From Treponema sp. (lineage in GTDB: Bacteria; Spirochaetota; Spirochaetia; Treponematales; Breznakiellaceae): 13,939 bases of DNA. Where the stretch lies: the NCBI GenBank assembly GCA_031281685.1, contig JAITFA010000154.1:1-13939 (forward strand), given 5' to 3'. The notes below the pieces were generated by a model. That model ran no database searches, was not told where the DNA came from, and was given only the letters and a program-made list of their open reading frames with translations. Positions 1,165 to 13,939 of the stretch are shown in pieces (within the stretch, counting starts at the first letter, position 1; every line of letters begins with the position of its first letter). The position numbers and the translations under genes are program-made.

Positions 1165-1569
1165 ATGTTTACTACAACCGTAAGCCCCCGTTTTGGCGAT
1201 GTGGATGGTCTGGGGCATATTAACAACACCGTCATCGCCATCTGGTTTGAGCAGGCGCGCAATCCCCTGTTCAGGATATTTTCGCCTAACCTTGAAATCT
1301 GCCACGAAACTTGGCCCCTCATTATGGCGCACACGGACTTTGACTTTGTCGGCGAACTCTTCTTCCGTGCCGACGTGGAAATCCGCACCACCGTCAGCCA
1401 CATTGGTACAAAGTCCTTCACCCTCTACCACGAGGCTTGGCAGGAAAGCCGTCTCTGCGTAAAAGGTCACGCGGTCATCGTGTACTACGATTTCATGAAA
1501 AAAGAAACCGTCCCCATCCCGCCCGACAAACGCACACAGCTTGAGGAACTCCTTGAGCCGGAAGCCTGA
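1165..1569 (+). CDS. Acyl-CoA thioesterase, 4HBT hotdog-fold family (YbgC-like)
   Basis: A 134-residue single-domain protein of the 4-hydroxybenzoyl-CoA thioesterase superfamily, expected to hydrolyse an acyl-CoA or similar thioester in the cytoplasm. The N-terminal signature runs PRFGDVDGLGHINNTVIAIWF, where Asp14, His18 and Asn20 correspond to the catalytic Asp region and the conserved H-x-N that begins the long hotdog helix; EQAR follows, as in YbgC-type enzymes. The central strands (DFDFVGELFFRADVEIRT) and the later VKGHAVIVYYDF match the remaining sheet. It starts only 3 bases after the leuD stop and lacks a strong Shine-Dalgarno, which suggests coupling to leuD. Its substrate and any link to leucine synthesis are not shown; neighbouring placement is the only hint. 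It ends the leftmost operon. Confidence 0.85.
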   Translation: MFTTTVSPRFGDVDGLGHINNTVIAIWFEQARNPLFRIFSPNLEICHETWPLIMAHTDFDFVGELFFRADVEIRTTVSHIGTKSFTLYHEAWQESRLCVKGHAVIVYYDFMKKETVPIPPDKRTQLEELLEPEA

Positions 1570-1839
1570 GTAAGCCGCCCGCTCCCGTTGCTCATGACGG
1601 GAACGGCGCCTGCCAAGCCTTTCAAAGCCTGAGTAGGTTTAATAATTCAGTATGGGTTCCGGTCTCAATAATTCGCTCGCGTTACAAGACCATAATCTTA
1701 CCGCTTTCCCGCCATGTTAAAATCAATAATCGTCCGCGCAAGCCCTTCCTACGCGCTCGCCTAACGCCTTATCAAAGGGACTTATCAGCGCGAGCCGCTT
1801 ACGATAGCGGCTGGCATTGATGTTACGCGATCCGGCCTA
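1570..1839. other. Gene-free spacer downstream of the leu operon
   Basis: No convincing gene is seen. The stretch holds small dyads only: TCCCGT/ACGGGA around 1583-1602 (loop TGCTCATG) and AGCCGCT/AGCGGCT at 1793-1812 (6-base loop). Neither is followed by a T-run, so neither is a convincing intrinsic terminator, and no clear terminator for the leu operon is visible. The 11-mer AAGCCTGAGTA, which covers the thioesterase stop at 1562-1572, recurs at 1625-1635, exactly 63 bp on. AATAATTC also recurs at about 1640 and 1668. The region leads straight into the 21-bp array at 1840. Confidence 0.5.
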
Positions 1840-1986
1840 ATGTCTTTAGACGACGAGTCAATGTCTTCAGACGCGGAGTTAATGTCTAAAGACATCAGGT
1901 CAATGTCTTTAGACGCGGAGTTAATGTCTAAAGACATCAGGTCAATGTCTTTAGACGACGAGTCAATGTCTTTAGACGCGGGATTG
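1840..1986. repeat. Seven-unit 21-bp tandem repeat with conserved GTCT-NN-AGAC dyads
   Basis: Seven direct 21-bp units start at 1840, 1861, 1882, 1903, 1924, 1945 and 1966. Each begins AT-GTCT-NN-AGAC and continues with nine more variable bases. The arms GTCT and AGAC are perfect in all seven units, while the two central bases vary (TT, TC, AA, TT, AA, TT, TT). Units 1 and 6 are identical, as are 3 and 5; 2 and 4 differ by one base. In units 3 and 5 the dyad grows to ATGTCT-AA-AGACAT. A core GTCTAAAGAC is the reverse complement of GTCTTTAGAC, so neighbouring units can also pair with each other over 12 bp (1903-1914 with 1926-1937). The plus strand is open over the array (60 codons, 1840-2022, seven in-frame ATGs), but I do not call it a gene. 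Confidence 0.9.
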
Positions 1987-2001
1987 ATCGCAAGTCTCAG
2001 T

Positions 2002-2056
2002 CAAACGGTGCGGCGCTTTTAAAGCAGCAGTGGATGGCAAAGTACAGCGCCGTTTG
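2002..2056. repeat. Imperfect inverted repeat after the 21-bp array
   Basis: CAAACGG at 2002-2008 is the reverse complement of CCGTTTG at 2050-2056, and the arms can be extended by CGCT/AGCG if a five-base bulge is allowed on the left. It lies just beyond the stop of the minus-strand nucleotidyltransferase (2074) and could form a hairpin at the end of that transcript. The loop is long and no T-run follows on either strand, so it is not a standard terminator. Confidence 0.3.
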
Positions 2057-2073
2057 TGAACTATCTGACAGAC

Positions 2074-2985
2074 CTATGCCCATAAAGACGCGGGATAAAC
2101 ACCCTGCGCCACAAGTTCAGCCACACGAGCGGTCGTGCTTGCCTTATCTTCCTTATAGGTAACGCCAAACCAGTCCGCGTTAGCATTTAACGCCTTGAAC
2201 GAAAGCGTTTTGTTTTTGATGAGCCAGTCCACGGCGCGCGGAATGTAACATTCACTCTTAGGGTTGCTGGCTGAGGTCTTGAGAAACTCCTCGAAGTAGC
2301 GGCGTATATGGGGAATAACCCCCGGCGGAAAGCCCCAGAAGTTCATTGATACCGGCGTGTCTGGCGCGAGGTCGCGTTCCGTGCCGTCTGGCGCAGTGTT
2401 GAAGATACGACCGTTCCGTTGGCTAATCGCGGTCAGCTCTTCCACCGAAACGAGATAGCCGTTCTCGATACCACAGACCCCACGCGCCACACTTCCCTGG
2501 GGGCTGAGGGTTTTGTCGAGCCGGTACGGTACTATGGCGCCTTCGCTCAACTCGGCTGAACCAAGGTAGGTCCCCAATACCTCAAAAGCCTCTTTGCTGT
2601 AAAAGTCGTCGGCGTTAATCACGGCAAAGGGCGCGTCGATTTTGTCCGCCGCGCAGAGCAGGGCGTGGCTCGTTCCCCAGGGTTTGACGCGCGTGACGCG
2701 CTGCGCCTCCGCGTATACTTCAGGCGGAATCAGGGTATCCAGGTCCTGAAACACCACTTCGTACCTGACCCGCGTTCCCATACGACTGAGAACCAGTTCC
2801 CTGAAGTCCTGCTCAATGTCGTGTCTGATGATGAAGATGACTTTCTCAAAGCCTGAGCGGAGCGCGTCATACACTGAATAGTCCAGCAGGACTTCGCCAC
2901 TGTTGCCGATGCGGTCAACCTGTTTCAAGCCGCCGTAGCGACTTCCTATGCCTGCTGCCAAGATTACCAGAACTGGTCCTTTCAT
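2074..2985 (-). CDS. NTP-transferase family nucleotidyltransferase (sugar-nucleotide type)
   Basis: A 303-residue GT-A-fold nucleotidyltransferase, expected to join an NTP to a phosphorylated sugar or similar small molecule in the cytoplasm. The N-terminal nucleotide loop is clear, LAAGIGSRYGGLKQ at residues 9-22, the family's G-x-G-x-R pattern with the following Lys. KPWGTSHALLCA (101-112) and INADDFYS (123-130, acidic metal-binding pair Asp126-Asp127) follow in the correct order. The C-terminal part lacks left-handed-helix hexapeptides, so this is a single-domain type. The ATG at 2985 has a good site, AGGAG, five bases upstream. An intrinsic terminator ends only 17 bp before the start codon, so its promoter is not obvious. 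Substrate cannot be told from sequence; it could serve surface polysaccharide, lipid or phosphonate-type conjugates. Family confidence is high, exact role low. Confidence 0.85.
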   Translation of the reverse strand: MKGPVLVILAAGIGSRYGGLKQVDRIGNSGEVLLDYSVYDALRSGFEKVIFIIRHDIEQDFRELVLSRMGTRVRYEVVFQDLDTLIPPEVYAEAQRVTRVKPWGTSHALLCAADKIDAPFAVINADDFYSKEAFEVLGTYLGSAELSEGAIVPYRLDKTLSPQGSVARGVCGIENGYLVSVEELTAISQRNGRIFNTAPDGTERDLAPDTPVSMNFWGFPPGVIPHIRRYFEEFLKTSASNPKSECYIPRAVDWLIKNKTLSFKALNANADWFGVTYKEDKASTTARVAELVAQGVYPASLWA

Positions 2986-11033: not shown

Positions 11034-11891
11034 ATGGATAACTTTAACCTATTTACAACAGTAGCGGAGATGCTCTCATACACCTTTTTGGTCAGAGCGG
11101 TGATTGTGGGGTTTCTCGTATCGTTATGCGCGAGTCTTCTGGGCGTCAGTCTCGTACTTAAACGCTATTCAATGATTGGAGACGGGCTTTCTCATGTGGG
11201 CTTTGGCACGCTGGCTCTTGCCACGGCGCTGAACATGGCGCCGCTTGCGGTCTCCATTCCAATCGTGGTGCTGGCGGCTTTCCTGCTCCTGCGCCTCAGC
11301 GAAAACAGCGCCATCAAGGGAGACTCAGCCATCGCCATCATTTCAACCGGCTCTCTCGCCATCGGCGTAATCGTAATCTCCATGACTACCGGCATGAATA
11401 CCGACGTTTGTAACTACCTTTTTGGCAGTCTCCTTGCCATGAACAAGGGCGATGTGTACCTCAGCGTCAGCCTGTCGATTGTCGTACTCGTTCTTTTCGT
11501 GCTGTTCTACCATAAGATTTTTGCCGTAACTTTTGACGAGACCTTTGCGCGAGCCACAGGAACCCGAACCGGCGTGTACAATATGCTTATCGCCCTGCTC
11601 ACGGCAGTCACGATTGTGCTGGGTATGCGAATGATGGGCGCGCTCCTCATATCCGCGCTCATCATCTTTCCGGCGCTTACAAGTATGCGCCTGTGCAAGC
11701 ATTTCAGCGCCGTTACCATCTGCGCCGCGCTGGTATCGGTAGCGTCGTTCTTTATCGGCGTGGTGTTTTCATTTGTTGAAGAAACCCCGACCGGCGCAAG
11801 TGTGGTTATAGTCAATATAGTGATGTTCTGTGTATTTTCATTGCTAAGGTTTCTAAAACAGTTTAGTACCACAAGGGAGGTTTTTTCATGA
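11034..11891 (+). CDS. znuB: ABC-3 family metal transporter permease (ZnuB/TroC-like)
   Basis: An integral membrane permease of the zinc/manganese/iron ABC-3 family, 285 residues, normal length. It is hydrophobic throughout, with about eight membrane segments. Family marks include the first cytoplasmic segment LKRYSMIGDGLSHVGFG, where the GDGLSH sequence is the well-known ABC-3 pattern, and MRMMGALLISALIIFPALTS near the C-terminal half. Metal specificity cannot be read from this; the symbol denotes the family. No ATPase or solute-binding subunit is encoded next to it, so these must lie elsewhere if the transporter is complete. Its best Shine-Dalgarno (GGAGG at 11013-11017) is 16 bases from the ATG at 11034, unusually far, and no in-frame earlier start exists. 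The TGA overlaps the start of the next gene as ATGA. Confidence 0.85.
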   Translation: MDNFNLFTTVAEMLSYTFLVRAVIVGFLVSLCASLLGVSLVLKRYSMIGDGLSHVGFGTLALATALNMAPLAVSIPIVVLAAFLLLRLSENSAIKGDSAIAIISTGSLAIGVIVISMTTGMNTDVCNYLFGSLLAMNKGDVYLSVSLSIVVLVLFVLFYHKIFAVTFDETFARATGTRTGVYNMLIALLTAVTIVLGMRMMGALLISALIIFPALTSMRLCKHFSAVTICAALVSVASFFIGVVFSFVEETPTGASVVIVNIVMFCVFSLLRFLKQFSTTREVFS

Positions 11892-12565
11892 ACAAAAAAA
11901 ATCAGTTGGCAACTGCCGCGTGTCTAGCGGCAGCAGCGCTTTCGTTGAGCGGCTGCGGCGTCAAAGCGTCGTCCGCGCTGTCGGGCGTGAACAGCGCGGC
12001 TAAGACATCCGCCGTACCGCTGTATTCCAGCGGACCGGAAACCGCCCCCGCGCCGCCGAGCGCAAACAGCGAGGTCAAGGCATCCGCTGTATCGTTGTCT
12101 TCCAGCGGGCAAGAAACCGCCCCAGCGCCGTCCGTGTTTACCCTCGGTTATAACAATAACAGCCGCGTGTTCAGCGCGGGCGCGACAAAAGGCGGCAGCA
12201 ACATTGTCGAAATAAAGGAAAAGATGTTCATAGCCCAGGTGAACGACGTTTACCTTAACCCCGACGACTACGTTGGCAAGACTATCAAGCTGGAAGGACT
12301 GTTTATGACACAGGACAACGGCGCGCAGATTCCGCCCTACTACTTTGTGATCCGCTATGGTCCGGGCTGTTGCGGCAATGACGGGAACGCGGGCTTTGAG
12401 GTAATCTGGGACAATCAAGAGCCGGTTTATCCGCGGGACAACGAATGGGTAGAGGCGGTAGGAGTGTTCGGTTCTTATGAGGAAGACGGCTATCCTTACT
12501 ATTGTCTCAGTCTCGCTTCGCTTAAAGTGCTTGATGAACGCGGTCAGGAATTTGTGCTGCAATAG
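11888..12565 (+). CDS. Predicted lipoprotein with C-terminal YcgQ/DUF1980-like domain
   Basis: A 225-residue exported lipoprotein. The N-terminus is a type II signal peptide with lipobox LSGC (Cys23). It is followed by a low-complexity, Ser/Ala/Pro-rich linker made of two 25-residue copies (Asn35-Ala59 and Asn60-Phe84), both containing SSG-x-ETAPAP. The C-terminal domain (about 110-225) has VGKTIKLEGLFM, then FVIRYGPGCCGNDG with Cys161-Cys162, then EWVEAVGVFGSY. I read this as resembling the C-terminal domain of YcgQ/TIGR03943-type proteins (DUF1980/UPF0703), which I recall from zinc-regulated settings; this is motif resemblance only. The Cys pair could bind a metal. Translation is coupled to the metal permease by an ATGA overlap, with GGGAGG inside the permease's end. 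This makes a shared metal-handling role plausible but unproven. Confidence 0.65.
   Translation: MNKKNQLATAACLAAAALSLSGCGVKASSALSGVNSAAKTSAVPLYSSGPETAPAPPSANSEVKASAVSLSSSGQETAPAPSVFTLGYNNNSRVFSAGATKGGSNIVEIKEKMFIAQVNDVYLNPDDYVGKTIKLEGLFMTQDNGAQIPPYYFVIRYGPGCCGNDGNAGFEVIWDNQEPVYPRDNEWVEAVGVFGSYEEDGYPYYCLSLASLKVLDERGQEFVLQ
11990..12139 (+). repeat. Tandem 75-bp duplication inside the lipoprotein gene
   Basis: Two 75-bp units, 11990-12064 and 12065-12139, code for the Ser/Ala/Pro-rich linker of the lipoprotein. Each reads from AACAGC to a segment coding SSG-x-ETAPAP. Their DNA is clearly related, with substitutions at many positions, so the duplication is not very recent. A shorter partial match (VKASS) precedes the first unit. 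Confidence 0.75.
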
Positions 12566-13316: not shown

Positions 13317-13460
13317 TCAGGGCTGGCGCGGCGTCCTTGCGAATAGGTCAAGCTGCGCGCGATTTGCCGGACTTGGCTGCGTTCCAGCGGAACGATTGCC
13401 TAAACCTGACCCGCGGAATCACGCGGCGCTCTTACCCGGTTGAATAACGCCGCTACATCC
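13317..13460. other. Gene-free spacer before the 22-bp array
   Basis: No gene is seen. Two small GC-rich dyads are present: CGTTCC-AGC-GGAACG at 13380-13394 (6-bp stem, 3-base loop) and CCGCG-GAATCA-CGCGG at 13411-13426. Neither is followed by a T-run. Confidence 0.5.
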
Positions 13461-13702
13461 CTTTCTCAAGAGTCCTTGATCTCTTTTCCAAGAGTCCTTG
13501 ATCTCTTTCTCAAGAGTCCTTGATCTCTTTCTCAAGAGTACTTGATCTTTTTCCTGAGAGTACTTGATCTCTTTCTGAAGAGTACTTGATCTCTTTCCAA
13601 AAAGGACTTGATCTCTTTCCCACGAGTCCTTGATCTCTTTCTCAAGAGTCCTTGATCTCTTTCCCACGAGTCCTTGATCTCTTTCTCAAGACTCCCGCAG
13701 CT
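13461..13702. repeat. 22-bp tandem repeat, ten units plus one decayed
   Basis: Ten uninterrupted 22-bp units run from 13461 to 13680 and a decayed eleventh reaches 13702. The best-kept part is CTTGATCT followed by CTTTC of the next unit, giving CTTGATCTCTTTC at most junctions. The middle varies: CAAGAGTC, CAAGAGTA, CACGAGTC and AAAAAGGA. Units 1, 3 and 9 are identical, and so are 8 and 10, which suggests unit shuffling or partial duplication. TCAAG and CTTGA half-sites face each other in several units. Since 22 is not a multiple of three, all three frames are mixed; the minus-strand open frame here is not called as a gene. The array ends 37 bp before the -35 box of the HU-related gene. Confidence 0.92.
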
Positions 13703-13799: not shown

Positions 13800-13939
13800 A
13801 TGGCGCTTTGGCTCAGAAAAATTCAGAAGAAGAATCCCCGTGATTTAACCCAGTCAAAATGGTATTTGACGCAGGAAAAGTCGGGGACTGTGGGGCTTAA
13901 GGACATCGCAAAGGAGATTGAGGGGCGGTCGGCCCTTTC
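13800..13939 (+). CDS. HU-related histone-like DNA-binding protein, 5' part (cut by window end)
   Basis: Only the first 46 codons are visible. They read MALWLRKIQKKNPRDLTQ..., then KWYLTQEKSGTVGLKDIAKEIEGRSALS. This matches what I recall of the HU-related 'histone-like' family (TIGR01201 type), best known in Bacteroidetes, where the protein starts with a similar RK-x-QKKNP segment and then a helix containing DIAKEI-x-x-RS-x-L. These are variants of HU/IHF and would bind DNA as dimers. The ATG at 13800 follows AAAAGGAGACCTAT, with a good promoter and a possible operator upstream. If the call holds, finding it in a spirochaete-like genome suggests transfer. The remaining length, including any C-terminal extension, lies beyond the window. 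Confidence 0.7.
   Translation, partial: MALWLRKIQKKNPRDLTQSKWYLTQEKSGTVGLKDIAKEIEGRSAL

Follow-up and report, generated by a model that had tools for sequence, protein, structure and literature searches.

Phased arrays of GTCT-NN-AGAC dyads, a family of apparently non-coding elements in uncultured gut spirochetes

Plasmid centromere or operator arrays, such as sopC, the parC of RHH-type ParR and the omega heptads, are among the closest described systems, together with the CopY/BlaI-type 4-2-4 operators, e.g. TACANNTGTA, in which four-base arms surround two free bases. In the Beggiatoaceae, TAACTGA heptamer direct repeats are abundant, intergenic and tandem and lie mostly right upstream of start codons, and the available excerpt of the report finds no pattern in the functions encoded downstream (PMC4679880). 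The locus described here combines symmetric sites with a strict 21-bp step and belongs to a family of apparently non-coding elements in uncultured gut spirochetes. A literature search, outside which most subscription journals lay, revealed no description of such phased arrays among the papers listed.

The window array and its distribution

The window, i.e. the whole 13,939-bp stretch of DNA that was analysed, contains seven exact GTCTNNAGAC sites starting at 1842, 1863, 1884, 1905, 1926, 1947 and 1968, as found by motif search. The original prediction of seven dyads with 56 of 56 arm bases intact at a step of 21 bp was confirmed, and 200 dinucleotide shuffles of the window yielded a mean of 0.12 sites and a maximum of 2, none reaching 7. 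The dyad centres change as predicted (TT, TC, AA, TT, AA, TT and TT, in order), and units 1 and 6 as well as units 3 and 5 are indeed identical; however, the spacer between dyads, given there as nine bases, is 11 bp. Because the 6 internal linkers are of only 3 kinds, selection and recent copying cannot be told apart from the window alone, and the predicted weight of selection over copying gains its support from the arrays of relatives. The features around the array are as follows.

1165..1569, + strand: thioesterase-like gene (4HBT domain match), 3' end towards the array
1637..1696, - strand: scrap of an ABC transporter gene, matching the 3' part of the ABC gene of relative G004 with 80% identity in 60 bases
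1705..1826, no strand: left flank common with relative G002 at the same slot, 80.8% identity
1840..1841, no strand: AT preceding the first dyad; arm-adjacent bases prolong the dyad symmetry (37 arrays)
1842..1977, no strand: seven GTCT-NN-AGAC dyads at a step of 21 bp (motif search)
1978..1988, no strand: final 11 bp, linker-like, at about the start of the alignment with the G002 and G004 flank of the same slot
2074..2985, - strand: nucleotidyltransferase-like gene (NTP_transf_3 match below its cut-off), 3' end towards the array

A search of the genome and its relatives at 21-bp steps, suggested along with the original prediction, revealed a second array of 4 exact units in the own genome G000 (1.49 Mb, 56% complete) at C156:3132-3204, and 0 arrays of the reversed control pattern. 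Outside the two arrays, single GTCT-NN-AGAC sites were not enriched in G000 (11 vs 8 for the reversed pattern); therefore, the element exists at the level of the array and is no scattered operator. The pair motif, meaning two dyads at a distance of 21 bp, was found in 4 of 5 genomes of the genus and, across 19 of 56 genera, in 27 of the 145 family genomes; the 118 family genomes without it include incomplete MAGs, which affects such genome-level absences. Outside the family, the pair motif occurs in 1 of 375 Spirochaetota genomes, and the same draw of Spirochaetota genomes also held 17 family genomes, 4 of which carry it. With a free gap of 1-31 bp, 232 neighbouring dyad pairs were collected in 21 family genomes, and 229 of them are exactly 21 bp apart (the fixed-gap counts there sum to 229), making the predicted step near-absolute. 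The reversed pattern was absent from 144 of the 145 family genomes. The exception, G069, has 73 steps of CAGA-NN-TCTG (CAGANNTCTG), which are real 21-bp arrays of another arm type.

The named records closest to a neighbouring gene are from Treponema and Spirochaetaceae MAGs, with 62-69% protein identity. We take the habitat of the array-bearing genomes to be the termite gut and their family to be the Breznakiellaceae, an assumption drawn from isolate names and aided by the available excerpt of one report (PMC13067680).

Arrays of similar period are common in the genus. In 504.6 kb from four members, 50 of 65 tandem arrays (at least 3 copies, period at least 12) have periods of 21-23 bp, and the complete family genomes G041 and G030 hold two arrays each in 220 kb, 0 of 2 in that range, the TRF thresholds differing between such counts. 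A scan for 4-bp dyads at steps of 14-35 placed 24 of 26 genus loci at 21-23, compared with 7 of 7 in 712 kb of a non-spirochaete control (the seven lie in L015, L036, L047, L055 and L057) and 0 of 2 in 128 kb from other spirochaetes; 60 kb of G131 gave no locus. The control suggests a general helical preference of bacterial dyad arrays, and the step preference may be general even where arrays are rare. Extension of the steps to 60 gave 40 genus loci, 21 at 21-23 and 15 at 42-46. Most of the "random" stretches analysed begin at the end of a contig, a place where assemblies break because of repeats. Another 21-bp family, GCT-NN-AGC, shows 7-48 steps in five genus members vs 0-6 for the reversed pattern.

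Other repeats were also observed. The window has a second array at 13457-13695, with period 22 and about 11 copies of CTCTT-TCYC-AAGAG-TCCTTGAT, lying 5' of a gene whose start at 13800 is 105 bp away and whose end is beyond the contig; this gene has what we take to be an HU-like look. In addition, a 75-bp repeat (1.9 copies, 11990-12130) lies inside the gene 11888-12565 (DUF1980_C), the N-terminus of which resembles a lipoprotein signal by eye. G069 has a very large repeat load in L158-L164, where CAGA-NN-TCTG arrays, in which a 42-bp unit recurs as many as 29 times, stand next to AAACG-AC-CGTTT arrays. Perfect heptamer arrays, with 14-17 copies of a 7-bp unit, lie at or near contig ends (L096:4279-4380, L100:1-118, L101:1-118 and L172:3605-3703), and in 140 kb of G170, of another spirochaete family, the same arms GCCA..TGGC are found in three dyad arrays of 23 bp (L258, L263 and L264).

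Conservation of arms, centres and linkers

Constraint on the arms was assessed in 254 internal units of 45 arrays from the fetched loci. Arm mismatches occupy 44 of 2032 internal positions, a count made somewhat favourable by collection with the exact motif and at most 2 inexact units in a row, and the two outer bases account for 27 of the 44. Among 217 pairs of adjacent units, differences occur in 3-22 at the arm columns, 46-47 at the centre columns and 25-103 at the linker columns. Arms as variable as the linkers, the observation that would speak against the original prediction, were thus not found in these 45 arrays. The arms are equally held in arrays without a gene of the ORF222 family described below (21/1272 mismatches vs 23/760 in ORF222 arrays). 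The claim of protected arms around a free centre holds for the arms; the centre, however, is AT-biased, being AA in 117, TT in 100 and TA in 55 of 344 units (272 together), and the arm-adjacent columns are variable. Within the linkers, R at column 14 (245/254) and Y at column 18 (240/254) are conserved.

The dyad symmetry reaches beyond the arms. Taking one unit from each of 37 arrays, symmetry is 0.71 vs 0.42 expected one base further out and 0.58 vs 0.35 at two bases, with none at offset 3; the score is no different for hairpin-type pairing between linker ends than for dyad-type flank symmetry. The held arms and the extended symmetry agree with a palindromic protein site or DNA structure, as originally suggested, with protein binding as the part that we infer. 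Comparison of the linkers of 13 arrays gave 3.60 between loci of the same genome (n = 18) and 5.35 between different genomes (n = 60), showing that linkers are on average more alike within a genome and follow genome-specific dialects. The orthologous slot pair, at 5.06, ranks 28 of 60 and is unremarkable.

Retained slots and neighbouring genes

The window array lies between convergent genes, 3' of both neighbours, and G000, G002 and G004 all have an array at this place between the thioesterase and nucleotidyltransferase genes. In G002 it consists of ten 21-bp units, nine of them exact, with linkers wholly different from those of the window. The G004 genome has no GTCT pair; its slot holds about nine near-identical units AGCTAAAGCGATCAGGACAAA, matching the window unit GTCTAAAGACATCAGGTCAAT at 15 of 21 bases by eye and containing a symmetric inner dyad, GCT-AA-AGC. 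Two overlapping frames begin 113 bp downstream of this array. The second matches ABC_tran; the first, with no convincing Pfam match, is probably part of the same transporter, and the ABC transporter gene appears split in two at this slot (L189:3435-4851). The second frame survives in the window as the scrap at 1637-1696. The window copy looks orphaned, its downstream ABC gene apparently lost and the array kept at the ancestral place.

The second G000 array also has a GTCT array at its orthologous G002 slot; both known G000 arrays are therefore matched in this congener, with different linkers. Two other testable repeat types showed no array at the orthologous G002 place. As the slots are retained and orthologous linkers are no more alike than others, the arrays stay put while their linkers change in concert.

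One partner observed next to the arrays is ORF222, an undescribed paralogous family of helical+FN3 proteins with an FN3 C-terminus and an N-terminal bundle without clear fold match: 16 of 44 array loci are directly 5' of ORF222 genes or gene fragments, and 17 of 45 arrays adjoin ORF222. In the random stretches, a 21-bp array precedes 7 of 8 ORF222 matches, with distances measured from the HMM match and not from the start codon; these arrays have other unit sequences, and a clean dyad is not always present. A stricter gene call placed an array at 3 of 4 ORF222 genes vs 14 of 388 genes overall (p 1.5e-4), differing from the HMM-based figure because four ORF222 genes dropped out, probably since their early start codons overlap the arrays. 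A clean 4-2-4 dyad is missing from seven of 14 ORF222 arrays, which have other gaps or a best pairing of 0.52-0.86 (best of many placements, no null).

On the ORF222 protein tree, the GTCT label needs 3 changes, compared with a mean of 8.2 after shuffling and 0 of 500 shuffles as low, and a pair of ORF222 proteins with AGTT arrays, from two genera, forms one clade (100/100). Thus, ORF222 paralogs carry different array units, and, for those dyads that are clear, arm sequence goes with protein clade, a correlation that can arise from linkage alone, the GTCT loci having been chosen by pattern. The genome with most steps, G002 (63), has no intact GTCT-clade ORF222 in the fetched loci; its L101 holds a 31-residue ORF222 remnant, and L100 a scrap seen by eye and missed by the search.

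In addition, a GTCT array is found 5' of metF-fhs in G000 and G003 and 5' of fhs in G002. The 21-bp arrays overall show little 5' bias, with 36 genes counted for the 5' side and 29 for the 3' side, and promoter-like sites fall on either side of arrays. Many arrays, that of the window included, are not 5' of an intact gene. One of 41 arrays lies inside a longer frame according to a simple ORF caller, which took the wrong frame beside the window array.

Candidate functions and comparison with known systems

We propose that the arrays are non-coding cis elements, operator-like phased dyad arrays read as duplex by a cooperative dimer, a reading to which we give about an even chance. Cooperative recognition of the duplex by dimers predicts features that these arrays show: symmetric arms that stay fixed, linkers free to vary, near-absolute spacing of two turns, occurrence only as arrays, and slots that are retained. 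Symmetric half-sites are conserved at helical spacing, as in operator arrays; as for promoter location, arrays are 5' of ORF222 and metF-fhs, with the window copy and many others elsewhere and the promoter side variable. The unit would be a two-fold-symmetric site of about 14 bp, ww-GTCT-nn-AGAC-ww, repeated every two helix turns, and a dimeric factor may bind neighbouring sites cooperatively on one DNA face, so that the element would work only as an array. The position 5' of genes suggests transcription control, and the arrays before ORF222 genes, the metF-fhs operon and the G004 ABC transporter would most likely be operator or activator arrays. The leading candidate for the reader is ORF222, or else a co-inherited partner, because the arms change with the ORF222 clade where readable; shared inheritance of gene and array could also give this correlation.

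A bolder version is that each array and its ORF222 paralog form a self-addressed pair, each member reading its own arms, so that a genome would carry mutually insulated address strips, some of which, e.g. that of the window, might form a regulon by spreading to other genes or persisting there. We consider this doubtful, as it is weakened by the ORF222 arrays without a clean 4-2-4 dyad (7/14). If true, such pairs would be a new architecture, with many orthogonal regulators from one phased 4-2-4 template. The ORF222 paralog set may offer a natural series of arm specificities. A reader protein, if found, would allow the array to serve as a simple test of the way in which cooperative DNA recognition arises from phased repeats, and would explain an unannotated portion of these genomes, given the abundance of 21-23-bp arrays in the genus.

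The arrays could also be REP-like repeats that a dyad-recognising machinery (a RAYT or another nuclease or recombinase) multiplies and homogenises; arms would then be fixed because copying requires an intact site, and there would be no function for the host. The linker dialects and the patchy distribution over the family fit such copying. Y1 matches, moreover, reach 11 in G000 and at least 28 in relatives (6-11 per genus genome, some of them fragments), and all five Y1 proteins tested, four from the genus, are RAYTs (REP-associated tyrosine transposases). GTCT arrays occur in 10 of 21 genomes with at least 4 Y1 matches vs 17 of 124 others (p 0.0009), and one RAYT is 129 bp from a GTCT array (L113). 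However, 9 of 27 array genomes, MAGs being incomplete, gave no Y1 match (E 1e-10), Y1 genes are present in only two distinct array loci, and the RAYT genes are mostly flanked by a different motif, GTGYCAGACAC, with GTGCCAGA common to 15 of 17 flanks. The units also lack the palindromic 20-40 bp stem-loop of REP/BIME elements, having 4-bp arms, a 2-nt gap and symmetry to offset 2, and their mostly AA, TT or TA centres and variable arm-adjacent columns show no unpaired GTAG or CGTC tag. Some repeats here may owe their spread to RAYT; the retention of slots between species, which GTCT arrays show and two other tested repeat types do not, is not accounted for by it. We regard REP-like amplification as possible, though rather unlikely. 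Where arrays adjoin RAYT genes, 6 of 7 are on the 3' side and four have period 23. GTGYCAGACAC elements precede most RAYT genes at L269-L288 and resemble the CTCTGACACC units of many irregular arrays. The 23-bp arrays at L212:807, L194:4773-4959 and L279:4683-4766, the last 126 bp from a Y1 (RAYT) domain, have units reading like GTAG-TGGGAG-N5-CTCCCA-GC, which look like GTAG-tagged REPs in tandem.

Less probable again is an RNA element, in which the array is transcribed in a 5' UTR as a hairpin string or as a sponge for an RNA-binding protein. Folded as RNA, the window array outscores its shuffles (z -5.1 and -6.3), as low folding energy is expected from any dyad array. The best promoter-like site is upstream of the array in L104 and L102, a hairpin plus AGGAG stands between array and start in several ORF222 genes, and the equal scores of hairpin-type and dyad-type flank symmetry give no clear rejection. 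Yet complementary neighbouring centres are under-represented (45/299 vs 55.2 in permutations), giving no support to pairing of neighbours into hairpins; complementarity of the flanks shows no link to that of the centres (p 0.23), no Rfam match was obtained, and the genes on both sides of the window copy point their 3' ends at it. A terminator is likewise unsupported, no terminator-like site being found. The genus is full of 21-23-bp arrays and some window units are identical, as expected of a neutral minisatellite made by slippage, with arms unchanged by chance or recent copying; this is very improbable, as arms are fixed and linkers and centres variable over 45 arrays and in diverged orthologous slots. 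Scarcely credible is a coding heptapeptide repeat in the frame S-x-D, 21 bp being seven codons. Frames can be open (window 1840-2022, 60 codons), and in L104 the frame through the array ends at the start of the next gene. Against this, the centre TA of G131 arrays creates TAA in the S-x-D frame, TGA and TAG were seen by eye in that frame of L098 and L103, silent changes in the S and D codons (columns 4 and 10) are rare (12/508), and in 32 arrays there is no frame that consistently reads through into the gene. A translated product kept across copies, which the original prediction had named as counter-evidence, was thus not found.

Two known array classes were also rejected, the second on its repeat layout. 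A plasmid-type centromere is a single locus with a partition gene, whereas several array loci occur per genome, and no partition ATPase or filament gene is among the 25 neighbour families listed, of 42. CRISPR has 24-48 bp repeats and unique spacers, whereas the period here is 21 bp with 8 conserved bases, and linkers recur within and between arrays.

Among described systems, CopY/BlaI operators share the 4-2-4 layout, and differ in having few sites per promoter, another arm sequence and no array. Similar to sopC, parC and the omega heptads, the arrays combine tandem symmetric sites, helical spacing, array-only use and presumed cooperative dimer binding; unlike them, they occupy several chromosomal loci per genome beside ordinary genes, and their arms differ between array families. 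The TAACTGA repeat of Beggiatoaceae is a 7-bp direct repeat, described in the available excerpt without variable linker or dyad (PMC4679880). Compared with REP/BIME elements, as the available excerpt of PMC3733652 presents them, the arrays lack a fixed GTAG or CGTC tag and a stem-loop, having a 2-nt gap, occur also in genomes without a detected Y1 gene, and are set apart by the strict 21-bp tandem step and the retained slots; they resemble these elements in being intergenic, palindromic, lineage-restricted and of many families, with RAYT genes abundant in the same genomes (PMC3733652).
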